Source: Aminobacterium mobile DSM 12262 (GTDB lineage: Bacteria > Synergistota > Synergistia > Synergistales > Aminobacteriaceae). From it: a stretch of 64,000 nucleotides of DNA. The notes beneath the pieces are model-generated. The model saw only the letters and a program-made list of their open reading frames with translations. It did not search any database and had not been told where the DNA came from. The position numbers and the translations under genes were made by a program. Shown in pieces: positions 25,567 to 41,520 of the stretch; within the stretch, counting starts at the first letter, position 1, and every line of letters starts with the position of its first letter. The DNA lies in contig NZ_JAFZ01000001.1 in NCBI RefSeq assembly GCF_000526395.1, positions 310,001 through 374,000 of the forward strand. The letters run 5' to 3'.

Positions 25567-25605
25567 ATTGCGAGTAGCCCTTTGAAGGGTTACTCGCAAT
25601 TCTTT
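25567..25605. terminator. Bidirectional terminator between convergent genes
   Basis: ATTGCGAGTAGCCC (25567-25580) pairs with GGGTTACTCGCAAT (25587-25600), T-rich on both sides. It also encodes the last codons and stop of the leftward GntR gene ending at 25590. Confidence 0.85.
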
Positions 25606-26300
25606 TGCGCATCAAGGCTTAATAATTGACTTTTAAGCATATGTTCAATGTGTTTCTTTACGCTTTCACGTGCTTTACCTATGTCTCTATTGAGTATGCA
25701 GTTTAATATTGCTTCATGTTCTGTCATCATCTCTTGCCAGCTAGACAAGGGAAGCCTTGTATATCTATATCTTTGTGCATTAATTTCTTCTCGTATGGAG
25801 GCTAATATTTTAACAGCCAAGCTGTTTCCTGCTATTTCAGCTAGATATTCATGGAATTTAGTATGTGAGGAAGGATTGATAGCTTCATTTTTATTGCCTC
25901 GTTCTAAAAAAACAATTTCTTTGAGAGTTTCAAGGTCCTCTTCTGTTGCCCGTTCTATAACCCATTCTACAATTTGTGTCTCTAAAAGAATTCGAATTTC
26001 CATTAATTCTCGTATGGAAACATTTTCCGATAAGTGTTCAACGAGCTCATTGTTTGCCAAATATCGCAGCGCATTGGCAGAAATGTATGTGCCATCTCCA
26101 GATCGGGATTCGACGATGTTATATATTGAGAGAGCTTTTAAAACTTCTCGGATGCAATTTCTGCTGACTTGAAATATCTCAGCAAGAGCTAGTTCCCCTG
26201 GGATCTTTTCTCCAGGTTTCCATGCCCCTTTTTTTACTGCTTCGAGCATTTGTTCTAAAACATTTTCATATAACGTAGATTTATTAGCAGGCTTTATCAT
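25590..26300 (-). CDS. FadR/FCD-type GntR transcriptional regulator
   Basis: DNA-binding regulator of 236 residues: winged helix at 8-75 (GEKIPGELALAEIFQVSRNCIREVLKAL) and an all-helical FCD ligand-binding domain at about 95-225 with the metal-ligand pattern Asp/His (HTKFHEYLAEIAGN, ending HEAILNCIL). It is the most divergent of three tandem paralogues, sharing MxKPANKSTLxENVL at the start. It lies between two operons with a common operator and is a candidate regulator of both; ligand probably an organic or amino acid. Confidence 0.9.
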   Translation of the reverse strand: MIKPANKSTLYENVLEQMLEAVKKGAWKPGEKIPGELALAEIFQVSRNCIREVLKALSIYNIVESRSGDGTYISANALRYLANNELVEHLSENVSIRELMEIRILLETQIVEWVIERATEEDLETLKEIVFLERGNKNEAINPSSHTKFHEYLAEIAGNSLAVKILASIREEINAQRYRYTRLPLSSWQEMMTEHEAILNCILNRDIGKARESVKKHIEHMLKSQLLSLDAQKNCE

Positions 26301-26351
26301 TTATATCCTTTCTGAAGCATTAAAAATAATGTGTTCTTATTTCAATACGAC

Positions 26352-27047
26352 CTAACGCTGTTCTTTTTCGTGTAAACGTTCCAAGATCTCATATTGGCCG
26401 TGAGACAGGTGTTTATACATAATCTTTTTGGCTTTCTCTGGATTCCGCTCTTTTATAGCTTGACATATTTCCCAATTTTCTTTCTTGAAAGCAGCAAGGT
26501 TCTCAACTGGCGAGGTTTTGAAAATAAGTCGTTGCGTCGCGAGTTCATTGCGAATAGATCCAAGTAACCGCAATAAAAAACGATTTCCCGCCATCTCTGC
26601 TAAGACATTATGAAATTTATCGTGAATATCTACATCCGGATGTTCCTCGTCTTTTAATAAAAGCTCCTCCATTTTTTGAATTTGTTGCTCAGTAGCCCGT
26701 TGTGCTGCCCAATAAGCAATTTGGCCTTCTAACAATTGCCGAGCTTCCACAAGCTCTTTTAATGTAGACTCTTCAAAAAGGCTTGCAACAAACTCAGTGT
26801 TAGTAATATTGCGAAGAGCATTTATAGATAAATACGTGCCATCACCAGGACGCGCTTCAACAATTCCTGAAAGTTCAAGAGCCTTTAAAACTTCTCGAAT
26901 ACAATTTCGGCTTACCCCGAAGGTTTTCGCTAAAGCTTGTTCTCCAGGCAACTTCATACCAGGTTCCCATATATTTTTTTTAATAGCATCAATAATTTGG
27001 TTGAGAACGCTTTCATGAAGTGTCGATTTACTTGCCGGTTTAAACAT
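26352..27047 (-). CDS. FadR/FCD-type GntR transcriptional regulator
   Basis: 231 residues; the winged helix is MKLPGEQALAKTFGVSRNCIREVLKALELSG and the effector domain contains HDKFHNVLAEMAGNRFLLRL. It is clearly a duplicate of the next gene: both begin MFKPA-K-TLHE and both keep FVSRNC/FGVSRNC recognition helices and LVASLFEESTL. RBS AGGGGG before ATG. A GTATATAC palindrome lies in its leader at about 27079. Confidence 0.92.
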   Translation of the reverse strand: MFKPASKSTLHESVLNQIIDAIKKNIWEPGMKLPGEQALAKTFGVSRNCIREVLKALELSGIVEARPGDGTYLSINALRNITNTEFVASLFEESTLKELVEARQLLEGQIAYWAAQRATEQQIQKMEELLLKDEEHPDVDIHDKFHNVLAEMAGNRFLLRLLGSIRNELATQRLIFKTSPVENLAAFKKENWEICQAIKERNPEKAKKIMYKHLSHGQYEILERLHEKEQR

Positions 27048-27142
27048 TATATCCCCCTTACGTATAAGACCTTGTTAAAGTATATACTATTTGAACTCCG
27101 TGAAGAGACATAAAAATAGATTTTATATTTTATATAACAATT

Positions 27143-27835
27143 TTATAGTCTCTCTTTCTCCTTTTTCTCCAGAATCCCTTTTTGCGAATGGGCGAGGTGT
27201 TGGATCATAGTTTCTCGTGCCTTTTCTGGAGCCCGTGCTTTTACCGCCTGACAGATTTCCCAGTGGTCTTTCCGAAATTGTTCCAGATCTGTAGAGGGCC
27301 ATGACTTAAACATAATTCTTTGAGCAGATACTTCATTTCGTATGGAATCTAAAAGACGCAATAGAAAGGGATTCCCGGCTACTTCCGCCAGAAAATTATG
27401 AAATTGGTTATGTATATCTACGTTGGGAACGTCTGTTTCTTCCATCAAAATATGCTCTAAGATATTCACATCTTCCTCAGTAGCCCGTTCGGCTGCCCAG
27501 TAGGCAATTTGTCCTTCCAGAAGTTGCCGTGCCTCCATGAGCTCTGCAAGAGTGCTTTCCTCGAAGAGAGAGGCAACAAGTTCTGTATTAGCTATGTTAC
27601 ACAAAGCACTGTCGGAAAGATATGTGCCGTCACCAGCTCGGGCTTCGACTATCCCTGTAAGCTCAAGAGCTTTTAAAACCTCTCGTATGCAGTTCCGACT
27701 TACGCCGAAGGTTTTCGCCAAAGATTGTTCCCCAGGTAATTTCATACCCGGTTCCCAAGCCTTATTTTTTATGGCGTTGATCATTTGATGTAGCACATTT
27801 TCATGAAGAGTTGCCTTGTTTGCGGGTTTAAACAT
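27143..27835 (-). CDS. FadR/FCD-type GntR transcriptional regulator
   Basis: 230 residues, close paralogue of the preceding gene over its whole length. The recognition helix region GVSRNCIREVLKALEL is identical in the two, so they should bind very similar operators; the effector domains differ more, suggesting response to different ligands. ATG 27835 has AGGAGG upstream, with the palindrome CTGTATT-C-AATACAG immediately beyond. Divergent from the TRAP/Grd operon starting at 28026. Confidence 0.92.
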   Translation of the reverse strand: MFKPANKATLHENVLHQMINAIKNKAWEPGMKLPGEQSLAKTFGVSRNCIREVLKALELTGIVEARAGDGTYLSDSALCNIANTELVASLFEESTLAELMEARQLLEGQIAYWAAERATEEDVNILEHILMEETDVPNVDIHNQFHNFLAEVAGNPFLLRLLDSIRNEVSAQRIMFKSWPSTDLEQFRKDHWEICQAVKARAPEKARETMIQHLAHSQKGILEKKEKERL

Positions 27836-28025: not shown

Positions 28026-29018
28026 ATGAATACGTTGTTGATGAGCCAGAATGAAATCAAAGAGCTTATTACGATGAAAGATGTAGTTGAGGCCTGCGAC
28101 AAAACCTTTCAAGGAATGGGCGACGGAACTGTTATTAACCCCACGAAAGTCAATCTAGATCTTGGAGAAACAGCATCGTTCCCTCCTTATAGTGGATTTA
28201 TGAATGCTATGCCTGCCTATGTTGGATGGTCAGACACGGCTGGAATAAAGTGGGCTGGCGGGTTCTTAGGCGAACGTAAAAAAGTTGGTCTTCCCTATAT
28301 TACCTCTCTTATTATGCTCATAGATCCTAAAATGGGCAACTTCACAGCAGTGATGGATGGTGCATACATTACCAATCTTCGTACAGGTGCTCAGACAGCG
28401 GTAGCCCTTAAGTATCTTTTCCCTAGAAAATCTCTTCGTTTATGTCTCTATGGAGCGGGAATGCAGGGGCATACTCAGACCATGGCCATTTCCCAGCTTT
28501 TTGACATAGAAGAAGTACACGTATACGACATTAGTAAAGCAGCTGCTGAGCGCTATGCCTCTGACATGGCTTCTTATGTAAAAGGGAAAATTCATATTGC
28601 GAATACCCCCGAAGAAGCAGCGGATGGAGATGTGGTCGTTTGTGTTACTCAATCAAAAGATAAGTTTTTTAAAAATGAGTGGTTTAAGCCAGGAATGTTG
28701 CTTTTCCCTATGGGATCATATCAGGAATGTGATAATGATTGTATTTTAAACGCGGATAAAATAATAGTAGATCATATTGGACAGACCCTTCACCGCGGCG
28801 CTCTTGCAGAACTTGGTACCTCTGGACGGATCACAGAAAAAGACATTTTTGCCACCATCGGCGAATTAGCTGCTGGAAAAAAGAAAGCCTCTGTAGCTAA
28901 CGGAGAAAAGATTCTCTGTATCCCCATTGGAACAGGCGCTATGGATATTGGTGTGGCTTCAGTTGTGCTTGACAGAGCTAAGAAGAGCCAACGCGGAAAA
29001 ACGTACGCATTTGTATAG
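28026..29018 (+). CDS. Ornithine cyclodeaminase / mu-crystallin family enzyme
   Basis: NAD(P)-binding enzyme of 330 residues. The dinucleotide motif is LCLYGAGMQGHTQTMA near residue 140, and YITNLRTGAQTAVALKYLFP carries the conserved Arg and Lys region of the family. Members are ornithine cyclodeaminases, alanine dehydrogenases, ketimine reductases or related amino-acid dehydrogenases, so the reaction cannot be fixed here. ATG 28026 follows GGGGAGG; an upstream in-frame ATG lacks a site. First gene of the operon; a strong hairpin follows it. Confidence 0.87.
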   Translation: MNTLLMSQNEIKELITMKDVVEACDKTFQGMGDGTVINPTKVNLDLGETASFPPYSGFMNAMPAYVGWSDTAGIKWAGGFLGERKKVGLPYITSLIMLIDPKMGNFTAVMDGAYITNLRTGAQTAVALKYLFPRKSLRLCLYGAGMQGHTQTMAISQLFDIEEVHVYDISKAAAERYASDMASYVKGKIHIANTPEEAADGDVVVCVTQSKDKFFKNEWFKPGMLLFPMGSYQECDNDCILNADKIIVDHIGQTLHRGALAELGTSGRITEKDIFATIGELAAGKKKASVANGEKILCIPIGTGAMDIGVASVVLDRAKKSQRGKTYAFV

Positions 29019-29040
29019 AACAAGCGGGTAGCGCCGCACA

Positions 29041-29083
29041 TAAAGAATGGGTGTCGTTAGGCGAGTACGACACCCATTCTTTA
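29041..29083 (+). terminator. Strong hairpin between cyclodeaminase-family and TRAP genes
   Basis: TAAAGAATGGGTGTCGT (29041-29057) pairs perfectly with ACGACACCCATTCTTTA (29067-29083), 17 base pairs with a nine-base loop. No T-run follows, so it may cap the first transcript segment or stabilise mRNA rather than fully terminate. Confidence 0.55.
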
Positions 29084-29108
29084 AAAGAGTAAGAGGGGAG
29101 GGTCTGGG

Positions 29109-29657
29109 ATGTCAGAGTCAAAAAGTTTTTTTAACACCATTCTTTATTGGGCAGCAAAAGCGCAAGATGTAGTTTTGGTTTTTCTGATGTCATTCATCTC
29201 GATTCTTGTTTTTGGCCAGGTTGTGTTGCGCTATGTTTTTAAAGCCCCCCTTATGGGAATAGAAGAGTTGCTTCTTTTTCCCACAACATGGGCATATCTT
29301 ATCGGGGCTATAAAAGCTTCGGCAGACAAAAATCAGATAGTGGCCAGGGTGCTCGAAGTTTTTATGCGGAAACAGAAATCAGTGTATTTAGTGCGTGCCA
29401 TTGCTGCTGCTTTAAGTGGAGTTGTTCTAATTTGGCTTTCCTATTGGGGATACGATTATCTCAAATATGCTCTACGTGTCCAAAAAGAAAGTCCCACGCT
29501 CTTTATTCCCATGATTTGGTCTGAGTCTCTTGTTTTTGTCAGTATGGCTTGCATGACCTTCTATACCATCGTTGAATTTTTTGGTCATGTTCGAGACTTT
29601 ATCCGAACACCTCAAGACGTGCTAACCCAGATGGAAGTGGAAGAGGAGGTATATTAA
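29109..29657 (+). CDS. TRAP transporter small permease (DctQ)
   Basis: Small membrane subunit, 182 residues, four hydrophobic segments. FGQVVLRYVFKAPLMGIEEL near residue 37 is the DctQ signature. It bridges the binding protein and large permease of a sodium-dependent TRAP importer. It abuts the next gene. The three TRAP genes are split: DctP lies after the serine dehydratase gene. Confidence 0.92.
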   Translation: MSESKSFFNTILYWAAKAQDVVLVFLMSFISILVFGQVVLRYVFKAPLMGIEELLLFPTTWAYLIGAIKASADKNQIVARVLEVFMRKQKSVYLVRAIAAALSGVVLIWLSYWGYDYLKYALRVQKESPTLFIPMIWSESLVFVSMACMTFYTIVEFFGHVRDFIRTPQDVLTQMEVEEEVY

Positions 29658-30962
29658 ATGGTATCTGTTGCTCTTATCGCTTTATTAATTCTCGTTGTAT
29701 TCCTCTCCCTCGGTGTTCCTTTACCTTTCTGTTTTGGTGGAGCCCTTATGTATATGAGCATTATAGGTGGCGTATCCATGAAAGGCATGATGATGTGGGG
29801 GTTGCAACAGATTTTGAGCCCTGTCCTGCTCTGTGTCCCCCTCTTTATTTTTGCAGGAAGTTTAATGAGTCAAAGCGGTATTGCAAAATATCTACTTGAT
29901 CTAGTGGACGTTTTTGTAGGGAGAGTAAAGGGTGGTTTAGGTGTTGTAGCTACAGTAAGTTGCGCCATTATTGGCGCTATCTCTGGCAGCGGTTTTACAG
30001 GAGTAGCAGCAGTGGGTCCTATCCTTATTCCACGCATGGTTGAGCAAGGATACCCAAAAGGTTACGCTACGGCTCTTGTCACAGATTCTTCTATTCTTGG
30101 GCTCCTTATTCCTCCAAGTGTTATTTTGATTGTCTACGGCTGGGTCACCGAAACATCTATCTTAGCCTGTTTTCTTGCCACAGTAGGGCCGGGAATCCTC
30201 GTTACTATTTTCTTTTCCATCATTAATCTTATATGGGCTAAACGGTTCCCTCTCAAACTGGAGCCAGAGCTTAAAAAAGAAGAAAAAATGCGCGAAATTG
30301 TTCATCGAGGTTGGAAAGCATTACCAGCCCTCATGATGCCAGTTATTATTCTTGGCGGAATTTATGGGGGAATTATGACTCCTACAGAGGCCGCAGCAGT
30401 AGCTGTTATATATGCAATTCCTGTAGGTTTCCTAATTTATAAAGGGCTTAAAGCTAAAAATTATTATGAGGTAGCCAAAAATTCTGCAATATCCGTTGGA
30501 TCTATCATGGTCATGATTTTATGTAGCCTCATGCTCAGCCAGACATTTGTTATGCTTCAAATTCCTCAAGCTATTGTAAAAACTATGTTTGGAATTACAC
30601 AGAATAAGGTTATATTGTTGGTCCTCATCAATCTTCTTCTTTTCTTCATAGGCATGATTGTGAATGACCTTACAGGAGTTATTCTTGTCGCGCCCTTACT
30701 TTTACCATTAGCTTTAGCCATAGGAATTCACCCTATCCATTTTGCCTCCATTCTTGGTGTTAACCTCGCAGTCGGCGGTGTCACGCCACCCTATGCGAGC
30801 ATCCTTTATTTAGGAATGAAGATTGGAGAGGTGGAATTTGTTGAGATTCTTCGTCCAGCAATGACTTTTCTTTTGTTGGGCTATATCCCCGTTATGATCC
30901 TTACTACATTTTGGCCCCCTCTGTCCCTTTTCCTTCCTGGAATTATGGGATTTTTACAGTAG
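29658..30962 (+). CDS. TRAP transporter large permease (DctM)
   Basis: Twelve-segment inner-membrane subunit, 434 residues, that carries solute with sodium. SGSGFTGVAAVGPILIPRM near residue 110 and LLIPPSVILIVYGWVTE near residue 152 are hallmark DctM motifs, repeated in inverted topology by GMIVNDLTGVILVAPLLLP and GVTPPYASILY. Starts one base after the DctQ stop codon. Typical TRAP cargo is an organic or amino acid anion. Confidence 0.94.
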   Translation: MVSVALIALLILVVFLSLGVPLPFCFGGALMYMSIIGGVSMKGMMMWGLQQILSPVLLCVPLFIFAGSLMSQSGIAKYLLDLVDVFVGRVKGGLGVVATVSCAIIGAISGSGFTGVAAVGPILIPRMVEQGYPKGYATALVTDSSILGLLIPPSVILIVYGWVTETSILACFLATVGPGILVTIFFSIINLIWAKRFPLKLEPELKKEEKMREIVHRGWKALPALMMPVIILGGIYGGIMTPTEAAAVAVIYAIPVGFLIYKGLKAKNYYEVAKNSAISVGSIMVMILCSLMLSQTFVMLQIPQAIVKTMFGITQNKVILLVLINLLLFFIGMIVNDLTGVILVAPLLLPLALAIGIHPIHFASILGVNLAVGGVTPPYASILYLGMKIGEVEFVEILRPAMTFLLLGYIPVMILTTFWPPLSLFLPGIMGFLQ

Positions 30963-30986
30963 TGGGTATTAAGGGAAGTGGCGTCT

Positions 30987-32588
30987 ATGAACTTTTGTCA
31001 GAACCGTAACAGACTCGTGAGTCTTTTTGATTCCCTCGGTCCTATTATGACAGGACCCTCTAGTTCTCATACAGCGGGAGTCCTCAGAATAGGGCGAATG
31101 GGCCGACTCTTTTTAGGAGGAGACCCTGAGCGCATTGACCTTTTTTTCTATGGCGCATTGGCTGAAACCTATAAAGGACATATGAGCGATTCTGCTATAG
31201 TAGGCGGCTTGCTTGGCATGAGAGAAGATTCTCCGGAAATAGGAGAAGCTCTTTCTTTGGCCGAGCAAAAAAATATCCCTGTTTTATATCACTTGGAACC
31301 ACTCTCCAAAAGAAACCCGAACACTGTAGATATGCTTCTTGCGAGACGAGATCAAAGCCTTCGGGTTGTAGGAATTTCTGTCGGTGGTGGCGAAATTCTT
31401 ATGACAGATATTGAAGACTTTCCTATTTACTTGCAAGGAAGCGAAGAAGGGATTCTCTTTATTGCAGATAAGCTTTTCACAAAAGAGTTTTTAGCTGAAC
31501 TTTTGGAAGAGAACGTTTTATTCCTTGAAAAGAGTGTCTCGTCAAACCATGAAGAAAAGGACGTCCTTTACACCTGCCTTACGGAAAAACCTTTGTCAGA
31601 TATTCAGCTTAAAAAAATAGAAAGAGAAGCAGGAGTTAGAAAGGTTTTTCCCCTTACTTGTTTGCTTGATTACAAATTGAAAAACGATGAACCCCTTTTC
31701 TCTTCTTTCGAAGGATGGCTTCACTATGCTGACTCTCTCCATATTTCTTTACCTGAAGCAGCAATTGCATTTGAAGAAAAAAGGAGTGGCTTATCCAAGG
31801 GTTTTATTCGTGAAAAGGTACAGATTGCGTGGCAAACAATGTCTCAATCTGTAGAAAAGGGGATGGGGAACGATCTTTGTCTTTTAGGTGGGCTTATGCC
31901 CCATGATGAAGGTGTAAAACTTATGGCTCTTGTAGAAGGAGGGCGATCTCTTTCTGGTGAAACTGTAGGAAAGGCTGTGGCAAGAGCGCTGGGCGTCATG
32001 ACATTGAACGGATGTATGGGGTGTGTAGTAGCAGCTCCGACTGCGGGGTCAAGTGGTGTATTGCCTGGAGCCCTTCTAACAGCAGCTGAACATTTAAGCT
32101 CAGATATTGCGGAAATAGAAGATGCGTTACTTGTAGCGGCAATGACAGGGGCTCTCATCGCTATGAGGGCACCAGTTTCCGGAGCATTGGGAGGATGCCA
32201 ATCCGAGATAGGTGTTGCTTCTGCCATGACTGCTGCTGCTTTAGCACAGCTTTCCGGAGGTACTGCAAAAGAGGTTGTTCATGCTTCTTCACTTGCTTTA
32301 AAAAATATTTTGGGACTTATCTGTGACCCTGTTGCAGGACCAGTTGAGATTCCATGCATTAAACGCAATGCTATAGGGGTAGCCAATGCTTTTGCGGCTT
32401 CAGATATGGCTATTGCTGGCATAGAAAGTATTATCCCGCCAGATGAAGTGGTCGATGCTCTCATCAATGTACAGAAGCTTTTGCCTGTTGAACTTCGAGG
32501 AAGCATGCGAGGAGGGTTAGCTTCTACCCCTACCGCACAAAAACTCAAAGACAAATGGTTTGCAAAATTGGGAGTAAAGAATAGTTAA
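30987..32588 (+). CDS. sdaA: L-serine dehydratase, iron-sulfur dependent, single chain
   Basis: Converts L-serine to pyruvate and ammonia using a [4Fe-4S] cluster; 533 residues. The N-terminal part (SLFDSLGPIMTGPSSSHTAG) equals the beta subunit; the C-terminal part (from about 255) equals the alpha subunit, with TLNGCMGCVVAAPTAGSSG and LICDPVAGPVEIPCIKRN bearing the cluster cysteines. It is longer than E. coli SdaA (454), because the middle ACT-like region is retained as in clostridial beta subunits. ATG 30987 fits AAGGGAAG at 30971; GTG 30978 would overlap it. Placement inside the TRAP genes suggests that the imported compound yields serine or a similar beta-hydroxy amino acid. Confidence 0.9.
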   Translation: MNFCQNRNRLVSLFDSLGPIMTGPSSSHTAGVLRIGRMGRLFLGGDPERIDLFFYGALAETYKGHMSDSAIVGGLLGMREDSPEIGEALSLAEQKNIPVLYHLEPLSKRNPNTVDMLLARRDQSLRVVGISVGGGEILMTDIEDFPIYLQGSEEGILFIADKLFTKEFLAELLEENVLFLEKSVSSNHEEKDVLYTCLTEKPLSDIQLKKIEREAGVRKVFPLTCLLDYKLKNDEPLFSSFEGWLHYADSLHISLPEAAIAFEEKRSGLSKGFIREKVQIAWQTMSQSVEKGMGNDLCLLGGLMPHDEGVKLMALVEGGRSLSGETVGKAVARALGVMTLNGCMGCVVAAPTAGSSGVLPGALLTAAEHLSSDIAEIEDALLVAAMTGALIAMRAPVSGALGGCQSEIGVASAMTAAALAQLSGGTAKEVVHASSLALKNILGLICDPVAGPVEIPCIKRNAIGVANAFAASDMAIAGIESIIPPDEVVDALINVQKLLPVELRGSMRGGLASTPTAQKLKDKWFAKLGVKNS

Positions 32589-32608
32589 GCATAAAGGAGG
32601 CGGTGTTC

Positions 32609-33625
32609 ATGAAAAAGTTTTTTGCAGCACTATTGGGAATTTCTTTTGTTTTTGCGGCTCTCTTTATGGTAGGCGGAGAAGCTCTGGCCAAAGAGAAATC
32701 TTATGTCTGGAAGATTTCTCATATCCGCCCGGCAGATACGGCAATTGACAAAGATGTGAAGTGGTTTGCAGAAAAACTTGAACAGGAATCTAACGGTCGT
32801 ATTAAGCTCCAGATTTTTGATAACAGTCAGCTTGGCGACTACACCGTCGTTCATGAAAGAGTGAGTGTTGGTGCGGTAGACATGGCCATTCAGCCTGTCG
32901 TTACCACTGCCGACAAAATGCTCCAGATATTGAATCTCCCGTACATTGTGAATGATTGGGAGGGAGTAAAGAAAAATTATGTAAGCGGCACTCCCCTCAT
33001 GAACTGGGCAGCGGAACGTTACGCCAAACAAGACCTCAAAATTATTAGCGTTTGGCCGGTGTATTTCGGAGGAACCGCTCTCATGAAAAAACCTGAGAAA
33101 CCTGGCGATCCTTCCGTCTCTAAAGGGCTGAAAGTCCGAGTCCCGACGCAGAAAGCCTTTGAGCTTCTGGCAGATGCACAAGGGTACATGGCTACTCCTC
33201 TTGCTTTTGCTGAAACATTTACAGCTCTTCAGACTGGAATTGTAGATGGGGCTTTTGGAGCCGGAGCAGAAGGATATTATGCGAATTTCCGCGACATTAT
33301 CAAGTGCTATGTTCCATCGAATACTCATTTTGAGCAGTGGTATCTCATTATAAACATGGAACTTTGGAACTCTCTTTCTGAGGAAGATCAGGCTTTAATT
33401 ACTACGTTGGCTCGCGAAATGGAAGATCGCCGCGTTGCTCAGGCTGAATCTGATCAAGCGGCAAATGAGAAGCGTATGGAAGAGTATGGCATTGAGGTTG
33501 TTCACCTTTCCAAAGAGGAGCTTCAAGCCCTTACTGATAATGCTCGAGAAAAAGTTTGGCCTGAAATGAGAAAGATACTTGGAGAGGCAAACTTTGACGA
33601 AGCTGTGAAGCTAGTTATGGATTAA
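32609..33625 (+). CDS. TRAP transporter solute-binding protein (DctP)
   Basis: Extracytoplasmic binding protein of 338 residues with signal peptide (FFAALLGISFVFAALFMV, cut near ALA-KEK). WKISHIRPADTAIDKDVKWFA, the family's first helix, and KVRVPTQKAFELLADAQGYMATPLAFAETFTALQTG, with the conserved Arg that grips the ligand carboxylate and the family signature, place it in DctP. ATG 32609 follows AAAGGAGG at the right distance. Behind it a hairpin favours excess production. Confidence 0.93.
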   Translation: MKKFFAALLGISFVFAALFMVGGEALAKEKSYVWKISHIRPADTAIDKDVKWFAEKLEQESNGRIKLQIFDNSQLGDYTVVHERVSVGAVDMAIQPVVTTADKMLQILNLPYIVNDWEGVKKNYVSGTPLMNWAAERYAKQDLKIISVWPVYFGGTALMKKPEKPGDPSVSKGLKVRVPTQKAFELLADAQGYMATPLAFAETFTALQTGIVDGAFGAGAEGYYANFRDIIKCYVPSNTHFEQWYLIINMELWNSLSEEDQALITTLAREMEDRRVAQAESDQAANEKRMEEYGIEVVHLSKEELQALTDNAREKVWPEMRKILGEANFDEAVKLVMD

Positions 33626-33636
33626 AACTGTTTATA

Positions 33637-33665
33637 AGTAGGGGCTTCAATAAGCCCCTACTTTC
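33637..33665 (+). terminator. Hairpin behind the TRAP binding-protein gene
   Basis: AGTAGGGGCTT (33637-33647) pairs with AAGCCCCTACT (33652-33662), then TTCT. Strong stem with a short T tail; likely partial termination before the catabolic genes. Confidence 0.65.
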
Positions 33666-33683
33666 TAAAAAGGGGGAATTGTA

Positions 33684-34955
33684 GTGTCAGAATCGTTGCT
33701 TACCATTTTGAAAAGAGAAGTTAAGCCAGCCCTTGGATGTACTGGCCCGACCTCTGTTTCTTTTGCTGCAAGTGTGGCTCAAGCAGCTGTGGAAGGGGAA
33801 GTAAAATCCATAAAAGTTGTGATGGATCGGGATACGTATAAAAATTCTATAGCAGTGGGTATCCCAGGTACATCGCTATTAGGGCTTGATATAGCGGCTT
33901 CTCTTGGTGCCGTTGCTGGGGATGCAGAAGCAGGCCTAGAGGTTTTACATAATATCACGAAGGAAGACGAGAAAAGGGCCATAGCCATGCTACCCAACAC
34001 CCACATTTCTATCGATTGGACTCGAAAAGAGGTTGGTCTTTATATTGATGCTACAGTTGAAACTACAAATGGAGTTGGACGAGCAGTTGTCGTTAAAACC
34101 CATACAAATGTAGTTCTTATAAAAGCCAATGAAGAAATGATATTGGCTAAACCCCAAGAAGATACAGCAGCTTCTGACTATTCGAAAGATGCAATCCTTT
34201 CTTATAAGCTTAAGGATCTTTACGATTTTTCTTTAAGTGAGCCTCTTGAGAATTTATTATTCCTTCAAGATGCCATAGTGATGAACGAAAAACTTGCCAA
34301 GGCTGGTTTTGAAGAACAAGCAGGAGGAAAGTTTGGACAGGGGTTCCTCGATTATCCCTATATGAATCCTATTATCAAGGCTAAAGCCTTGACAGCCGCT
34401 GCCTCTGATGCACGAATGGATGGCCTGGGGCTGCCAGCCATGAGTTGTGCCACAAGTGGAAATGTTGGCATTACAGCTTCGTTACCCCTTGTTGTTATGG
34501 CTCGTGAACTTGATAAAGATAAAGAAGCGCTTCTTCGATCTCTTGCCCTTAGTTTTCTTGTCACTATTTATCTAAAGAGTCATATTGGTCGCCTTTCACC
34601 GATGTGTGCTTGCGCCATAGCTGCGGGGTTGGGTGTTACTTCTGGAATGGTCCTTATGCTTGACGGTTCTTTTGAGCAGGTGGAAAGAGCAATCAATACT
34701 GTTGTAGGAAGTATTGGCGGCATCTTGTGCGATGGCGCAAAGCTCGGATGTGCTATGAAGTTGGCCAATGCGGTAGGTACGGCAATGGAATCAGCTTATT
34801 TGGCAATGAATAATACGTCTATCCGTTCAGGAGACGGACTCGTTTGTGAGAGAGCAGATGATACCATCTGCATTCTTGGCCGGATAGCACAAAAGGGAAT
34901 GGCTCCTGCCGATGAAGAAATGTGCCGTGCCATTATAGAACGAGAACAGGGTTAG
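33684..34955 (+). CDS. UPF0597/CyuA-like L-cysteine desulfidase or serine dehydratase-alpha-like protein
   Basis: 423 residues, GTG start behind AGGGGG. KREVKPALGCTGPTSVSFAA at the start, SDARMDGLGLPAMSCATSGNVGI in the middle and HIGRLSPMCACAIAAGLG plus GILCDGAKLGCAMKLANA towards the end are the conserved UPF0597 blocks, with the cysteines expected for an iron-sulfur cluster as in serine dehydratase alpha chains. Known members (YhaM/CyuA, archaeal CdsB) degrade L-cysteine to pyruvate, sulfide and ammonia. A GC-richer paralogue lies at 39106. In this operon it may act on a product of the Grd-like enzyme. Confidence 0.88.
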   Translation: MSESLLTILKREVKPALGCTGPTSVSFAASVAQAAVEGEVKSIKVVMDRDTYKNSIAVGIPGTSLLGLDIAASLGAVAGDAEAGLEVLHNITKEDEKRAIAMLPNTHISIDWTRKEVGLYIDATVETTNGVGRAVVVKTHTNVVLIKANEEMILAKPQEDTAASDYSKDAILSYKLKDLYDFSLSEPLENLLFLQDAIVMNEKLAKAGFEEQAGGKFGQGFLDYPYMNPIIKAKALTAAASDARMDGLGLPAMSCATSGNVGITASLPLVVMARELDKDKEALLRSLALSFLVTIYLKSHIGRLSPMCACAIAAGLGVTSGMVLMLDGSFEQVERAINTVVGSIGGILCDGAKLGCAMKLANAVGTAMESAYLAMNNTSIRSGDGLVCERADDTICILGRIAQKGMAPADEEMCRAIIEREQG

Positions 34956-34966
34956 GGGGGAACTTT

Positions 34967-36259
34967 ATGGAAACCTTGAAGCTGAGACGAATCTCAATTT
35001 CAAACATAGAGTTTGGGACAGTCACTGAAATTAAGGATAAGACTCTTTTTATAGATAAAGAAGAGCTCGTTTCCCTTCTTCTCGAAGATAAGCAGCTTCA
35101 AAGTGTTGATATTAAAGTAGCTCGGCCTGGGGAAAGCAAGCGAATTATCCCTGTAAAAGATGTCATAGAGCCTCGAACGAAACTCGAAGAAAAAACCTAC
35201 ACCTTCCCGGGCTTTTTTTGTGACCCTAATTTCCTTTCGGGTCGAGGAACCACAGTTGTTCTCGATGGGGCAGCTGTGGTGACGTCAGGTAAACTTGTGA
35301 ATTTCCAGGAAGGTCTCATAGATATGAAGGGAAAAGGTGCGGAATACAGCATCTTTTCGAAGAAGAACAATATAGTTTTGCTTTTTGAGCCAGTCCCTGG
35401 TCTTGGGAAACATGAACACGAGCGAAGTGTACGAAACGGCGGCATTAAGGTCGCCCGTTTCCTGGCAGAAGCAGTAAAGAACTACCCTTTATACGAAGAA
35501 ACAACGTACACGGTTCCTACGTTGGCGGAACTCCTAGGAAGAAACAGCTCATTACCTAAAGTGATTTATGTCTGTCAAGCCATAGCACAAGGATTGCTTC
35601 ACGATAACTATTTCTATGGTCTCAACGCGCAGGGATGTCTTCCTGTCTTCATGAATCCGACAGAGCTTATGGATGGAGCTGTGGTAAGCGGCAATTGCGC
35701 AGCCCCATGCCACAAACATACTACGTACCACCATCAAAACAACCCTATTGTAGAAGATCTTTTATTAGAACATGAAAAAAATATTAATTTTCTAGGAGTT
35801 ATAGTCGCTCCTGTTCGCACAGCTTTCGTAGAGAAAGAGCGGATCTGCAACCAGGTATTCAAAATAGCTGAAATGCTGGGAGCAGATGGGGCCATTATTT
35901 CCGAAGATGGGGGAGGCAACCCCGAGGCCGATCTCATGATGCTCACGAGGCTCTTTGAAAAGCGTGGCATAAAAACAGTGCTGGTCACAGATGAATATGC
36001 TGGTTCTGATGGTGCGTCTCCAGGCCTTGCAGATGTAACTCCAGAGGCAGATGCTGTTGTAACGAACGGAAACGGGAATGAGCGAGTGATTTTACCTCCT
36101 ATGGACGAAGTTATTGGCCATATTGAATGTGTTGATGTCATTACAGGCGGTCATTCCGGCAGTCTTCTCCCTGATGGGTCTGTGTCTATGGAAATAGCTG
36201 GCATCATGGGGGCTACCAACGAATTAGGCATAGAAAACCTCACCACATGGGCAATTTAG
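34967..36259 (+). CDS. Glycine/sarcosine/betaine reductase component B, alpha/beta proprotein (GrdE/G/I-like)
   Basis: 430 residues, about the length of GrdE. In the family this proprotein is cut at an internal cysteine, which becomes a pyruvoyl group that forms a Schiff base with the substrate amine. The corresponding site is VVSGNCAAPCHKHTTYH, with C244 (and C248) as nucleophile candidates. SEDGGGNPEADLMML and VITGGHSGSLLPDGS are further family blocks. ATG 34967 is preceded by a G-run. It is directly followed by its selenoprotein partner. Which amine substrate it binds is not known; glycine, sarcosine and betaine forms look alike. Confidence 0.9.
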   Translation: METLKLRRISISNIEFGTVTEIKDKTLFIDKEELVSLLLEDKQLQSVDIKVARPGESKRIIPVKDVIEPRTKLEEKTYTFPGFFCDPNFLSGRGTTVVLDGAAVVTSGKLVNFQEGLIDMKGKGAEYSIFSKKNNIVLLFEPVPGLGKHEHERSVRNGGIKVARFLAEAVKNYPLYEETTYTVPTLAELLGRNSSLPKVIYVCQAIAQGLLHDNYFYGLNAQGCLPVFMNPTELMDGAVVSGNCAAPCHKHTTYHHQNNPIVEDLLLEHEKNINFLGVIVAPVRTAFVEKERICNQVFKIAEMLGADGAIISEDGGGNPEADLMMLTRLFEKRGIKTVLVTDEYAGSDGASPGLADVTPEADAVVTNGNGNERVILPPMDEVIGHIECVDVITGGHSGSLLPDGSVSMEIAGIMGATNELGIENLTTWAI

Positions 36260-36270
36260 GAGGAGGAGCT

Positions 36271-37581
36271 ATGAAAAAGATCAAAGTCGTTCATTACATA
36301 AATCAATTTTTCGGGCAGATTGGTGGGGAGGATAAAGCAGGTATACATCCCTTTACGACAGATGGGCCAGTGGGTATTGGTAATATTTTTCAACAAGAGT
36401 CTGATAATCGGTATGTAATAGTAAAAACGATTATTTGCGGAGATAACTATGCAGCGGAGAACTTAGAGACAGTGAAAGAACAGGTTCTTCTATGGGTTAA
36501 GAAGGAAGAACCAGATCTATTTATTGCAGGGCCAGCCTTTGCTGCGGGACGATATGGAACCTCTTGCGGCACCCTATGTCAAGCTATAACAACGACTTTG
36601 AAAATCCCAGCTATAACAGCCATGCATCCTGTAAATCCAGGGGTAGATATTGCCAGAAAAGATCTTTTCATTATTGAAACAGGTGATTCAGCTCGGGAAA
36701 TTTCTTCTGTTGTGCCTCGAATGATTCATCTCGCGGATAAAGTTCTGGAGAAGAAAACTATTGGAGGCCCTGAAGAAGAAGGATATATCCCAAGAGGCAT
36801 ACGAACCAATATACGGAAACCTCAAAGGGGATCTCGGCGAGCAGTGGATATGTTGGTTAACAAACTTTACAACCGTCCTTACATTACAGAACTCCCCATG
36901 CCAGTCTTCGATACTGTTCCTCCAGCTCGCCCTGTCTTAAACATGAGAGATGCCGTAATCGCCATTGGTACGGAGGGTGGGATTGTACCTCGAGGAAATC
37001 CAGACCGAATAGAGGCTCATAACGCTTCGAAATGGTGTCACTATTCCATAGAGGGCCTCGATGCATTGCAAAAAGGGGATTATGAAGTCGCTCATGGAGG
37101 CTACGATCCTGTAGCTGCAAATGAAAATCCTAATCGTGTATTGCCTCTTGATGCTGCACGGATTTTAGAAAAAGAGAAGGCTTTTGCTCGTCTCCATAAC
37201 GAATATCCCGTTACTGTAGGAAATGTTACGGCGGTGAGGTCTGCGGAACGATATGGGCGAGAAATAGGAGAAATGCTTTTAAGCCAGGGGGTACATGGAG
37301 TTATTCTTACTTCCACTTGAGGAACGGGTACTCGTTGCGGAGCAACGTTGGCCCGAGAAATAGAGCGAGTGGGGTTACCAGCAGTTCTCATTACAGCCAT
37401 CCCATCGGTTGCCTTCACAGTAGGGGCCAACCGAATAATACGAGGGGTTGCTATTCCTCATCCAGTAGGCGCTCCTTCAGAGAAGCCAGCAGAAGAGCTT
37501 GCCATCCGGAAACGTCTTCTTGAAAGAGCTCTCAAAGCCTTGTCTGAACCCATTTTAGAACAGACTATTTTCGAGGAATAG
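36271..37581 (+). CDS. Glycine/sarcosine/betaine reductase component B selenoprotein (GrdB/F/H-like)
   Basis: Selenoprotein subunit, 436 residues when the in-frame TGA at 37318-37320 is read as selenocysteine (residue 350). The frame on both sides is continuous: VHGVILTST-U-GTGTRCGATLARE, which is the active-site motif of GrdB with Sec at the same position as in known 436-residue GrdB. A SECIS-like hairpin follows the TGA. FAAGRYGTSCGTLCQ and AIGTEGGIVPRGNPDRIEA are other family blocks. The selenol attacks the activated substrate and hands an acetyl-carrying group to GrdA, which is not in this window. ATG 36271 follows AGGAGGAGG. An automated annotation would split it into two genes at the TGA. 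Confidence 0.93.
37318..37355 (+). promoter_or_regulatory. UGA selenocysteine codon with SECIS-like hairpin
   Basis: TGA at 37318-37320 is followed by CGTTGC-GGA-GCAACG (37333-37347), six perfect pairs with a three-base loop containing two Gs about 19 bases after the TGA. An outer helix CGGG (37325-37328) with CCCG (37352-37355) encloses it. This matches the bacterial SECIS architecture. Confidence 0.85.
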
Positions 37582-37583
37582 AA

Positions 37584-37934
37584 ATGCGTATCCTATCGAA
37601 CAATCCTCGGGTGATCAGTGCTTTCTCCCAAGCAGAATCTATAAAAGGTTCGGCCTCCCTTGTGTTGGAGTTTGCACGGAAATACATCCATGTGGGGTTT
37701 GTTCTCTTTGCGCATCCATTAGCTGGGAATGCTCGTCTTTGCCGAAATCCTTACAGATCTGTTGTACTCGATGGACCTCAGAATGAAGTGTGTGCCCGGT
37801 CGGTACTCTGGATTGATGATGCAATTGAACGTCTATCTCGAGGACAATTCGATAGCGATATAGCCAAGCAAGATGACTATAGCTTCATTGATTATGATTT
37901 GCTCTTATCGACGATTCGCTTAAATATAACCTAA
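37584..37934 (+). CDS. grdX: GrdX-like protein
   Basis: 116 residues resembling GrdX, a small protein of unknown role encoded in glycine reductase operons. The start ILSNNPRVI fits the family. It begins two bases after the selenoprotein stop codon, so it is translationally linked. It supports the view that the two preceding genes are a working reductase component. Confidence 0.75.
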   Translation: MRILSNNPRVISAFSQAESIKGSASLVLEFARKYIHVGFVLFAHPLAGNARLCRNPYRSVVLDGPQNEVCARSVLWIDDAIERLSRGQFDSDIAKQDDYSFIDYDLLLSTIRLNIT

Positions 37935-37947
37935 AGGAGGGGTAGCA

Positions 37948-39033
37948 ATGGATCATAAATTTGCAGTACTTGGCAGCGGGAATGGAGCACGGGCTTTTTG
38001 TGCACAGATAGGGGCTAAAGGGTACGACGTTATGATGTGGGAACCTCTCGAGGCTACCGAAGATTACAAACGACTTCGGGAAGAAAAGAAGATGTATCTT
38101 AAAGGAGATATTAATCTAGAAGGTAATTTAATGGGTGTTACCATGGACATTGCTGAAGCTATGGATAAGGCGAAAGTGCTTTTTGTGGTCGTTCCTTCTT
38201 TTGCACATGAGCCTATCTTCAAGAAAATGCTCCCCCATCTTAAAGATGGACAGCATGTAGTAGTAGTACCTGGTAACTATGCTGGTTTCAGACTTCGTAA
38301 AATAATGAAAGAAGCTGGAGTTGATGTAAAAATTTCCATTTCAGAGACAGCTTCTATGCCTTATGCTTGCCGCATTAGCAGCTACAATACAGTCCGGATT
38401 TTTAAAAAGAAATTTAAGTTGCAAATTGCCACTTCTCCTGCAGCTGAAGCAAAAGAAGTATTCGAAATAATGCAAGATATTTTTAAGGGATATGTAGAAT
38501 TTATTCCCTCCAATAGTTTACTTGCCATTGACCTTGATAATATCAACTTTACCCTCCACCCACTGCCAGTTCTTCTAAATTATGGCGCTATCGAAAAAAA
38601 TCCGGAAGGATTTCGCCATTACATGGATGGAATTACTCCCGAGATAACAAAGCTTATGGAAAAAATGGATGAAGAGCGAAGAGCCATTGGTAGAGCTTAT
38701 GGAGTAAATCTCATTGAAGCCCTTGAACAGCTTAAAATGTTTTACGGAGACAATGACACAAAAACATATTATGAGTACGTGCAGAGTCCTCAATCTCCCT
38801 ATGAAGACTTAATAGGGCATAATATAAAAGGGCGATACCTTACAGAAGATGTTCCCGGAGTTCTTGTTCCGGCCCTGCTGCTTGCCCGAAAAGCTGGTTG
38901 TAGTGCTCCTACAGTGGAGCTTGCGGTGGAATTGGCTTCTCGTCTTCATGGAGTGGACTATCTGAAGAATGGAACCACCCTTGAGACACTGGGTATTGCA
39001 GATCTTTCCATTGACCAGATTCGTAATATTTAA
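37948..39033 (+). CDS. Opine dehydrogenase family protein (octopine/nopaline dehydrogenase-like)
   Basis: 361 residues. N-terminal Rossmann motif AVLGSGNGARAFCAQI (residues 6-21), SETASMPYACR near residue 132 and, in the C-terminal helical domain, LDNINFTLHPLPVLLNYG with the His typical of the octopine/nopaline dehydrogenase fold. Such enzymes reversibly join an amino acid to a keto acid to form an N-carboxyalkyl amino acid. AAGGAGG precedes the ATG. Last gene of the operon. Its role here may be oxidative cleavage or formation of an opine-like intermediate; the direction cannot be told from sequence. Confidence 0.85.
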   Translation: MDHKFAVLGSGNGARAFCAQIGAKGYDVMMWEPLEATEDYKRLREEKKMYLKGDINLEGNLMGVTMDIAEAMDKAKVLFVVVPSFAHEPIFKKMLPHLKDGQHVVVVPGNYAGFRLRKIMKEAGVDVKISISETASMPYACRISSYNTVRIFKKKFKLQIATSPAAEAKEVFEIMQDIFKGYVEFIPSNSLLAIDLDNINFTLHPLPVLLNYGAIEKNPEGFRHYMDGITPEITKLMEKMDEERRAIGRAYGVNLIEALEQLKMFYGDNDTKTYYEYVQSPQSPYEDLIGHNIKGRYLTEDVPGVLVPALLLARKAGCSAPTVELAVELASRLHGVDYLKNGTTLETLGIADLSIDQIRNI

Positions 39034-39044
39034 CAAAAGAACTG

Positions 39045-39082
39045 AAAAGGGGCAGCCTTAACAAGGCTGCCCCTTTTCTTTA
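39045..39082. terminator. Bidirectional terminator at the end of the TRAP/Grd operon
   Basis: AAAAGGGGCAGCCTT (39045-39059) pairs with AAGGCTGCCCCTTTT (39063-39077), 15 perfect pairs with a three-base loop, T-rich on both outer sides. Serves the operon and the convergent gene ending at 39106. Confidence 0.88.
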
Positions 39083-39105: not shown

Positions 39106-40416
39106 TTAGCAGGCAGAGCGAGAAGCCATAATATCGAGAATAATTTTGTCTACGTCACTCATTCCCTGGGTGTTTACCGTTACCACATTGGCGACGGTTT
39201 CTTCGATCTTCTCGTCAATAACTCCCTGGGGGATTTCAATGCAATGTCCGTTCATAACGAGCTCTGCGGCCTGTACAGCCTCAAAAGCTCCAGTTCCGAC
39301 CTTCAGTGAGCATGTTTCCTTGGCTCCATCGCACAGCATTCCAACAAGGTTCCCCAGCACAAGCTCCATGGCTTTGGCTGCCTGGACATCGGAACCTCCC
39401 AGAAGATGAACGATCCCGCCGGCAGCACCGGCTCCAGCCGCTACGGCACATCCGCAAACCGGGCTCAGTCGTCCCATCCGGCTCTTCACGAAGCTTGTAC
39501 ACAGGTGGCTGTAAATAATGCCTTCCGCTATCTCTCTGTCGCTTTTGCCCAGTTCACGTCCCAGAATATAGACGGGCAGGATGGCGGTGATTCCATGGTT
39601 CCCACTCCCCGCGCTGCTCATGACAGGGTAGGGGGCTCCAGACATTCGAGCGTCGGAAGCTGCGGAACTAATAGCGCGAATTTTAATGGACCGGTCCAGG
39701 GTCTCCCAGTTGGCAGCGGCTTTTTTGAGGGTTTTGCCCACCTCAAGACCGAGGGTTTGGCTCTCGTCGAAACCATGTTCTGCCATGTCCATATTCATTT
39801 GTGCCCCTTCCAGCGCATAGGCGGCATCATTGTCGTCCATCTGCTGGATAAGGTCCACCACAGATGAGAAGGGCATTTGGGCGATCTCCTGCGCGGCAGA
39901 AAGAGACTCTTTCTCTCCAGATTTATTCTCTTTTGTCTCTGCCTCAAGAGAGAAGACAGTTTTCCCATCAAGGGTGACCTGTACAATGCCTGTATGGCTG
40001 CCTTCAATGATACAGATGGCTGTTTTATCCCCGCCCTGCACGCTTGCTTTGACATAAACACCGTTCCGGTCGGGATCCGGGAGGACCTGTACATGTCCGG
40101 CAGACACCATTTTCTGAGCTTTAAGCACCATGTCGTCAGTACAGTCTTTGAGGACTTCGAGACCGAGGGAACTCTTTCCGCACAAGGCGCCTAGCGCCGC
40201 GGCAATGACATTGCCCCGAAGGCCGTTTGTCCCGGGAATGCCTACAGACATTCCATTCTTGAATATATTTCCACTCACCAGAACCTTAATGGAATTTACA
40301 GAGACCTTTCCCAGCTCTTCCGTAGCCCGGGCGACAGCCAAAGCTACCGCGCCGGGCTCGGTACATCCTAATGCAGGCTTTACCTCTTCTTTAAGGAAAT
40401 TCTTGAGCGATACCAT
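39106..40416 (-). CDS. UPF0597/CyuA-like protein, GC-rich paralogue
   Basis: 436 residues, start ATG 40416 behind AAGGAG. KEEVKPALGCTEPGAVALA, SDARMSGAPYPVMSSAGSGNHGI, RMGRLSPVCGCAVAAGAGAAGG and GMLCDGAKETCSLKVG are the family blocks, so it is a likely cysteine desulfidase or serine-dehydratase-like lyase. Its codon use is clearly richer in G and C than that of the paralogue at 33684 and of neighbours, which suggests recent arrival from elsewhere. It lies 28 bases downstream of the URO-D-like gene, in one operon with it. Confidence 0.88.
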   Translation of the reverse strand: MVSLKNFLKEEVKPALGCTEPGAVALAVARATEELGKVSVNSIKVLVSGNIFKNGMSVGIPGTNGLRGNVIAAALGALCGKSSLGLEVLKDCTDDMVLKAQKMVSAGHVQVLPDPDRNGVYVKASVQGGDKTAICIIEGSHTGIVQVTLDGKTVFSLEAETKENKSGEKESLSAAQEIAQMPFSSVVDLIQQMDDNDAAYALEGAQMNMDMAEHGFDESQTLGLEVGKTLKKAAANWETLDRSIKIRAISSAASDARMSGAPYPVMSSAGSGNHGITAILPVYILGRELGKSDREIAEGIIYSHLCTSFVKSRMGRLSPVCGCAVAAGAGAAGGIVHLLGGSDVQAAKAMELVLGNLVGMLCDGAKETCSLKVGTGAFEAVQAAELVMNGHCIEIPQGVIDEKIEETVANVVTVNTQGMSDVDKIILDIMASRSAC

Positions 40417-40444
40417 GTATATAGACTCCTTCTCTTCAGCAGAT

Positions 40445-41434
40445 TTACCGTGCTGTCTCTTCGATAAGTTTCTTGACAAGCAGCAGACGCTCGTCGGATG
40501 TGTTCGGGTTAACTACGCAGCCAGGAGCAAAAATAACAGCTTTTCCATCATTATGTTTCCATGTATCTTGAACCTGAGCGCGAAGTTCTTCTTCTGTCCC
40601 ATTGGGAAGAGTGTGCTTGTGGCTCAATCCTCCGCAGAAGCAGCGGTCGGTTTTAGCCCGAGCTTCCTCCATGGAAGGACCGTCATCTCTATCATGCCAG
40701 TTCAAAACTTGAATTGGGTAATCAAGAAGTTCCTCGAAATAGATGTTCGATCCATGAATGTGAAGCACGTTAAACCAAGATGTATCTTTAATGGCGTCAA
40801 GGATGACTCGGTCGTACTTTTTCATGAACTCGTTGAGTTGTGTTTCGTTAAGACGGTCGCGGCTTGCCATCTGCGTAGCAAAAAATACTCCCGCCGCACC
40901 GTTCTCAACAGCAGCCAGAGCAAATTCCTTCGTGGTCTCGGTAATAACTTCCAATCCCTTATGAACCTTCTCTGGGCACTCTACCAGGTGCTTTTTCAGA
41001 GTCTCTTCACCAGCCATTTTAAGAGCAGTTGTAAGGGGACTGAAAACAGTCTGTACAATAGGAACCTGACAATGGAGTTCTTTAAGGGCAATTCGCTGAG
41101 ATTCAAGAACAATGGCATACTCCCCAGATGTACCGCAACGAGGAGTAATCTTGTCCCAATCCTCAGGCGTAGCTATAGGGAAATTGGCAGCTACGGGTGG
41201 TTCGCCAAACCCTTCGAATACCTTGAGGTCTGTACCCCAATCAATGGTGGAGAACATTCCGTAAGGCATGTATTTAATAAAGTCCAGATCCAGAGCTTCT
41301 TGATAATGAATAGCGAGCTCCGCCAATCTTCGAGGCATTCTGTCTTTGTTGGGGAAATGCCACCAAAGGCTGTACGGTAAACGATCTGTCTCTTTCCCAG
41401 CTATAGCATGTTCGATTCGTTCGCGATGATTCAT
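40445..41434 (-). CDS. Uroporphyrinogen decarboxylase family protein (methyltransferase-like)
   Basis: 329 residues of the URO-D superfamily, from ATG 41434 behind AAGGAGG. The start NHRERIEHAIAGKETDRLPYS and the end GKAVIFAPGCVVNPNTSDERL are characteristic, and FCGGLSHKHTLPNG with CGG and CV sites resembles the zinc/cobamide methyltransferase branch (MtaA/CmuA) more than true HemE. No corrinoid protein or heme genes are near. Between a GntR regulator and a UPF0597 protein it probably takes part in amine or amino-acid catabolism; the substrate is unknown. Confidence 0.8.
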   Translation of the reverse strand: MNHRERIEHAIAGKETDRLPYSLWWHFPNKDRMPRRLAELAIHYQEALDLDFIKYMPYGMFSTIDWGTDLKVFEGFGEPPVAANFPIATPEDWDKITPRCGTSGEYAIVLESQRIALKELHCQVPIVQTVFSPLTTALKMAGEETLKKHLVECPEKVHKGLEVITETTKEFALAAVENGAAGVFFATQMASRDRLNETQLNEFMKKYDRVILDAIKDTSWFNVLHIHGSNIYFEELLDYPIQVLNWHDRDDGPSMEEARAKTDRCFCGGLSHKHTLPNGTEEELRAQVQDTWKHNDGKAVIFAPGCVVNPNTSDERLLLVKKLIEETAR

Positions 41435-41520
41435 AGATAAATCCTCCTTAGTAAAGAAATTTGGCATAAGCGACATATGTCTGTCTAAGGTTCACAACGC
41501 GTACAGTTCATAGAAAGAAC

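Follow-up and report, generated by a model that had tools for sequence, protein, structure and literature searches.

A selenocysteine-containing component B pair of a distinct type, encoded with an opine dehydrogenase and a TRAP importer in Aminobacterium mobile

Introduction

What does a component B of the glycine reductase family act on when its genes lie among those for an importer, amino-acid lyases and an opine dehydrogenase? The question is raised by a ten-gene operon in a 64-kb stretch of the genome of the amino-acid fermenter Aminobacterium mobile DSM 12262 (contig NZ_JAFZ01000001.1, positions 310,001 to 374,000; hereafter the window). To our knowledge, the documented substrates of component B are glycine, sarcosine, betaine and, lately, fluoroacetate. 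A preliminary description of the window held that the operon is not a standard glycine, sarcosine or betaine operon, and that the amine released by its component B may itself be an amino acid. Here we examine the GrdE/GrdB pair of this operon, its partner genes and its relatives in other genomes.

Results

The GrdE/GrdB Pair

Families were assigned by hidden Markov model (HMM) scans, using Pfam gathering scores and NCBIfam curated cut-offs. The pair consists of a GrdE-like component B alpha proprotein (34967–36259, plus strand; pyruvoyl-site motif SGNCAAPCHKHTTYHH) and a GrdB-like beta subunit (36271–37581, plus strand; motif UGTGTRCG). The subunits are adjacent, match PF09338 with 570 bits and PF07355 with 486 bits, respectively, and GrdB carries selenocysteine (Sec), which places them in the component B superfamily. 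No model of a known type reached its cut-off: GrdE gave 458 bits with the sarcosine GrdG model (cut-off 780), GrdB gave 533 of 800 bits with GrdF, 496 of 602 with glycine GrdB (TIGR01917) and 455 of 775 with betaine GrdH (NF040795), and the fluoroacetate model (NF053623) yielded 134 of 675 bits. The positive controls all scored above their cut-offs, with 881 and 854 bits for GrdG and GrdF of Peptoclostridium acidaminophilum and 674 bits for the glycine GrdB of A. mobile itself.

Across 185 Synergistota genomes, relatives of the window GrdE with at least 64% identity were found at 16 places, the window included, while all others, the A. mobile glycine GrdE among them, had at most 51%. These sequences formed one group in the trees, with support of 100/100 for GrdE and of 100/99 for the 16 GrdB rows, which a distant sequence (L071) joined weakly. 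The clade stood apart from the glycine, sarcosine and betaine-type references and thus inside neither GrdGF nor GrdIH, in trees whose sarcosine references come from one organism only, whose Synergistota betaine label is based on matches close to the cut-off (up to 738 of 775 bits), whose glycine and betaine labels for the Acetoanaerobium sequences were assigned in this analysis and, for GrdE, with a long-branch warning. The betaine and fluoroacetate types were ruled out in addition by the processing site (SGNC), which the window GrdE keeps. From these sequence comparisons, the assignment to a new type of component B in a non-standard operon is well supported; the view in the preliminary description that the operon is not a standard one was borne out by the cut-offs, the separate clade and the diagnostic residues described below.

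The grdB frame is interrupted by an in-frame TGA at 37318–37320 (residue 350, within STUGTGTRCG), where a mechanical list of open reading frames ends the gene; in translation the frame continues to 37581. The segment 37312–37372 folds at −23.2 kcal/mol (z = −3.05), and by fold energy and z score a hairpin region resembling a selenocysteine insertion sequence was delimited 3′ of the Sec codon at 37321–37372 on the plus strand. A tRNA-Sec scoring above its gathering threshold is present in the same genome. By these features, the window GrdB is a selenoprotein.

The motif reported for GrdB is UxxCxxC (PMC13188914). The window has UGTGTRC, in which the first Cys is replaced by Gly; since FarB also departs from the motif, we did not take this as excluding the window GrdB. 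Wherever GrdB is intact, the clade members from Synergistota, the window among them, have Gly at Sec+3 (UGTG); the position is Cys in every glycine, sarcosine and betaine-type row. In the alignment, the pyruvoyl site reads NCAAPCHKH in the clade instead of NCVSACDKN, and the clade GrdE retains both the GNC processing Cys and the second Cys. Further residues specific to the clade are Arg182, Glu235, His250 and Asn251 of GrdB (elsewhere Phe, Ser, Ser or Cys, and Ser) and His249 and His251 of GrdE, which lie beside the pyruvoyl-site cysteine. The three charged or polar GrdB residues Arg182, Glu235 and His250, together with the two GrdE histidines, suggest that the substrate bears an extra polar or charged group. 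A search of the PDB returned no relative of either Grd subunit; the AlphaFold models had a pLDDT (predicted local distance difference test) of 76 for GrdB, low at 176–192 and 238–252, and of 61 for GrdE.

In a survey of Sec motifs in the same 185 genomes, UGTC was found in 131 genomes and UGTG at 17 sites, 15 of them in clade loci. One further site lies on the short contig G176:C45 beside an ODHa gene and is probably the missing end of L050, a locus that is cut. The last, G031:C1:830384, belongs to a different divergent pair (GrdB 43% identical to the window), and UGTG was rejected as an absolute marker of the clade.

This other pair (L123:1277–10269; G031:C1, about 823–832 kb) is 32% identical to the window in GrdE, gives 267 of 780 bits with the GrdG model, and is clustered with TauE-like, OCD-family, two-component system and SSF symporter genes. 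Judging by sequence, it is possibly another new type of component B.

Rest of the Reductase Pathway

The preliminary description noted that GrdA and GrdCD are absent from the operon, which we confirmed, and the 2.1-Mb genome (5 contigs) does hold them elsewhere. Its one grdA (G000:C1:795409–795849) is part of a canonical grdE-A-B set (C1:794–797 kb), with GrdC beta and alpha subunits just downstream, above the NCBIfam cut-offs, so that GrdA and GrdC are available to accept a carboxymethyl group. With this canonical set counted, the window pair makes a second component B in A. mobile and would deliver to the one GrdA/GrdC shared by both. The sharing of one A/C system by several component B complexes is established (PMC10838667).

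Conservation of the Locus

The clade occurs in 13 further Synergistota genomes of six families, including metagenome-assembled genomes (MAGs) named Acetomicrobium hydrogeniformans, Thermovirga and Fretibacterium, and in two MAGs labelled otherwise; a search of genome contigs with a single sequence gave 0 matches, and with the clade alignment 12 loci. Neighbourhoods were counted in 14 loci with usable flanks (the window and 13 others). GrdX adjoins GrdB in all 14, the large permease of a tripartite ATP-independent periplasmic (TRAP) transporter is found in 13 (DctM 62–94% identical), an OCD-family enzyme and an opine dehydrogenase in 12 each, the fused serine dehydratase in 10 and the UPF0597 lyase in 4. 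Five canonical glycine loci of about equal size contained no TRAP, OCD or opine dehydrogenase gene. Most of the gene content of the operon is found again with related pairs of other families and genera, which is far above chance, and recurrence across several families rules out a fortuitous neighbourhood. The conservation of neighbours, which the preliminary description had put forward as a check, is thereby confirmed.

Gene order is variable. In six loci of several families (the window, L036, L037, L039, L041 and L047), the opine dehydrogenase ODHa lies directly 3′ of GrdX in the same orientation; in L040 it is convergent toward GrdX. The TRAP block is divergent from GrdEBX in L037, L038 and L048, and two loci (L042 and L043) consist of TRAP and GrdEBX alone, without nearby opine dehydrogenase, OCD or serine dehydratase genes.

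As for the two MAGs with other labels, L071 (Clostridiales) has a truncated, more distant pair, and L064 (Deltaproteobacteria) has the pair with a different TRAP type. In L064 (3461–16758), the clade GrdEBX stands beside a fused TRAP permease, a DUF5940 (GrdC-like) protein and a URO-D protein, with a TAXI-type binding protein and an amidohydrolase encoded upstream.

Partner Genes

The ten genes, all located where the preliminary description had placed them and matching its families by HMM, run on the plus strand from 28026 to 39033 with spacings of 0–90 bp. Behind the pair follow GrdX (37584–37934; NF038093 over cut-off) and ODHa, of the octopine/nopaline family (37948–39033). The latter scores 128 bits with PF02317 (Octopine_DH; cut-off 30), and the catalytic residues His204, Arg296 and Asp301 are present in all module copies. 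Its nearest solved relative is the N-(1-D-carboxyethyl)-L-norvaline dehydrogenase of Arthrobacter (1bg6, E 1e-50), which forms N-(1-D-carboxyethyl) amino acids with pyruvate as a reactant (reaction taken from the entry name and PMC10787698), with homology over the whole length and the HPLP and RYxxED motifs in ODHa. In opine dehydrogenases pyruvate is usually the favoured oxo-acid partner and two positions set the choice of amino acid (PMC10787698). ODHa has Asn110/Asn200 at these positions, unlike the Ala/Asn or Arg/Gly pairs; Asn110 stands against Ala111 of 1bg6.

The OCD/mu-crystallin family NAD(P)-dependent enzyme at the head of the operon (OCDa; 28026–29018, PF02423) is also a member of the module. 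Its nearest solved relative is the archaeal alanine dehydrogenase 1omo (E 1e-40), and it gives 204 bits with the model of that type (TIGR02371, cut-off 409). The Lys is conserved, and the Arg of the RAMP motif, a substrate-binding residue of the archaeal-type enzyme, is Asn in all module copies. A plain alanine dehydrogenase was rejected on both grounds. The fused iron-sulfur serine dehydratase (30978–32588; TIGR00718 over, TIGR00719 below cut-off) joins beta and alpha parts in a single chain of 536 aa, and its motifs are kept in the clade copies; a UPF0597/CyuA-like lyase of the serine dehydratase alpha (SDH-alpha) kind follows at 33684–34955 (PF03313).

The TRAP importer comprises the small permease DctQ (29109–29657, PF04290), the large permease DctM (29658–30962, TIGR00786 over cut-off) and the solute-binding protein DctP (32603–33625, PF03480/NF037995). 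The best solved relative of DctP (E 5e-24) is too distant for the ligand to be read. In the tree, DctP subtypes track gene combinations, and the window DctP falls, with moderate support (81/90), together with the DctP proteins of L042 and L043, the Grd-only loci.

We also used the opine dehydrogenase and the OCD enzyme as queries across the phylum and inspected the loci that lack this Grd pair. TRAP is combined there with ODHa (L116), with ODHa and ODHb (L112, L113, L115 and L119), or with ODHb, OCD and lyases (L105, L106, L109 and L110). Since all modules have the importer in common, the simplest view is that the imported compounds on which the opine dehydrogenases and the Grd pair act are related; loci with TRAP and GrdEBX alone (L042 and L043) or TRAP and ODHa alone (L116) suggest, from gene content, that both enzymes act on the cargo of this TRAP type. 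The OCD and serine dehydratase genes are present without the Grd pair and absent from L042 and L043, and are therefore not dedicated to the Grd product. The earlier suggestion that the two lyases degrade released serine or cysteine thus found no specific support, as they are general components of the opine module.

In the four loci with ODHb, OCD and lyases, a galactarate/altronate dehydratase-family (UxaA-like) enzyme stands beside TRAP, ODHb, OCD and UPF0597; serine dehydratase is also present in L109 and L110, and an alanine-racemase-N protein in L110.

Other Features of the Window

The run ends at a terminator-like hairpin between convergent genes at 39044–39078 (16 pairs, 9 of them G-C), detected by an inverted-repeat scan; no strand is assigned here, and the scan lists it as minus. 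Divergent from the operon, three tandem FadR/GntR-type paralogues of about 230 aa apiece occupy 25590–27835 on the minus strand (the first and third HMM-scanned) and are likely regulators; members of a related regulator family (cluster c6) are neighbours of the Grd pair in several loci of the clade. Right after the operon, the minus strand carries a second UPF0597/SDH-alpha gene and a methylcobamide:coenzyme M methyltransferase-like (MtaA/URO-D family) gene (39106–41476); a URO-D gene is also near the pair in L064. About 6 kb past the operon lie a P-protein of the glycine cleavage system (45016–46407, PF02347) and its probable second P subunit (46432–48021), followed by a saccharopine-dehydrogenase-like gene (49314–50492) and a sodium:alanine symporter family gene (50749–52224).

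Discussion

The retained processing site is a guide to the substrate. The processing cysteines were lost in betaine GrdI and fluoroacetate FarE (PMC10838667). With the GNC Cys and the second Cys both kept in the clade, the substrate is expected to be an amine that can form a Schiff base. To yield a carboxymethyl group, the attack by Sec requires an N-CH2-COOH unit, as is established for the family. An opine and an N-substituted glycine united in one compound give an N-(carboxyalkyl)glycine, the simplest of which is N-(1-carboxyethyl)glycine, or strombine, an abundant opine of invertebrates (PMC7669893).

We consider it close to an even chance that the operon serves the uptake and fermentation of opine-type secondary amines, in which two carboxylic acids are joined via one NH. 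TRAP would import an N-(carboxyalkyl)glycine, most simply strombine. Part of it would be oxidised by the opine dehydrogenase, with NADH, an amino acid (glycine) and a 2-oxo acid (pyruvate) as products. Another part would be bound by the new component B through its pyruvoyl group and attacked by Sec at the N-CH2 carbon, so that the amino acid (alanine, for strombine) would leave and the carboxymethyl group would pass to the shared GrdA and GrdC to give acetyl-phosphate. In this way a single substrate would supply both halves of a Stickland pair, and the OCD-family enzyme and the serine dehydratase-type lyases would process the released amino acids. More tentatively, and somewhat short of an even chance, the pair may be a hitherto undescribed opine reductase, a Sec/pyruvoyl component B reductively cleaving the C-N bond of an N-(carboxyalkyl)glycine to a free amino acid and acetyl-phosphate, with the opine as electron acceptor and, via the paired dehydrogenase, also as donor. 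An amino acid as the leaving amine, as suggested earlier, agrees with the adjacency of the opine dehydrogenase, the retained pyruvoyl site and the new charged residues in both subunits. An opine-type secondary amine is a plausible class; strombine, the lead candidate within it, is inferred. Our literature search, thin on subscription journals, found no prior description pairing opines or carboxymethyllysine with glycine reductase.

Several points weigh against this proposal. The substrate is inferred from gene context, and in the regions that matter the confidence of the AlphaFold models is too low to locate the clade-specific residues relative to a pocket. As DctP subtypes follow gene content, ligands may differ between loci. 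Strombine is a product of marine invertebrates, yet one carrier is a MAG from the rumen and others are MAGs from further environments; the true substrate may therefore be a different N-substituted glycine. Strombine alone also leaves the OCD and serine dehydratase genes unexplained.

The alternative that survives best, though we consider it unlikely, is a divergent glycine or sarcosine component B that uses glycine from the opine dehydrogenase and releases ammonia or methylamine. The best NCBIfam matches of the pair are indeed the sarcosine and glycine types, Sec and the pyruvoyl features are kept, and glycine is a plausible product of the dehydrogenase. However, a second glycine pair would be redundant beside the canonical set, the clade lies apart from both reference groups with different fixed residues at the Sec motif and the pyruvoyl site, and L042 and L043 have no opine dehydrogenase nearby.

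A reductase for a different N-carboxymethyl amino acid, for instance carboxymethyl-lysine or another glycation product, from which lysine or some other amino acid would be released, is quite unlikely. Carboxymethyl-lysine degradation was reported for Cloacibacillus evryensis, also of the Synergistota (PMC9501902); the same chemistry would apply, and one carrier is the rumen MAG. However, neither the operon nor its recurrent neighbours contained recognisable lysine-fermentation genes, and the presence of an opine dehydrogenase and of serine-type lyases suggests other partners.

Decidedly unlikely is an arrangement in which the Grd pair and the opine and lyase genes serve different imported compounds of one habitat, for example as a general amino-acid scavenging operon, without a common substrate. 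The sub-modules (TRAP, opine dehydrogenase, OCD with serine dehydratase, GrdEBX) do recombine freely, some loci are without one or more of them, and the TRAP block may be divergent; yet ODHa right behind GrdX in six loci and a large permease of the same kind in 13 of 14 argue against it. Finally, a synthetic opine dehydrogenase serving as electron sink, with an opine formed from internal glycine and pyruvate and then reduced by the pair, is very improbable: such enzymes are best known as NADH-consuming in invertebrates (PMC7669893), but a dedicated importer accompanies the genes nearly everywhere and the cycle has no obvious advantage over direct reduction of glycine.

The pair shares with the sarcosine GrdG/GrdF of P. 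acidaminophilum the families, Sec in GrdB, the GNC site, the APC..TT..HH..NN pattern after the processing Cys, the GrdX neighbour and the expected use of shared GrdA/GrdC. It differs in the sequence of GrdB (46% identical), in UGTG instead of UGTC, in HKH instead of DKV at the pyruvoyl site, and in its TRAP, opine dehydrogenase, OCD and lyase neighbours. With the glycine type, of which the same genome has a canonical copy, the architecture is common, whereas identity to that paralogue is 48% (GrdE) and 52% (GrdB), the clade is separate and the operon has no grdA or grdCD. The betaine GrdI/GrdH likewise has a Sec-containing beta subunit, but GrdI rows are without the GNC site kept in the window clade, and the two are far apart in the trees. 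FarE/FarB of Cloacibacillus porcorum is similarly an offshoot of component B in Synergistota with an altered Cys motif after Sec and shared GrdA/GrdC (PMC10838667); unlike the window protein, FarE is without the two processing cysteines, and its transporter and partner genes are different.

Conclusion

If our reading is true, a further conserved type of component B would add an energy-conserving reaction to those of the family, and the bacteria that carry it would be an anaerobic sink for opines from anoxic animals and decay. The Cys at Sec+3 of the UxxC motif would be dispensable in a component B of the pyruvoyl type, and the specificity of component B would become testable by the comparison of a handful of fixed residues.

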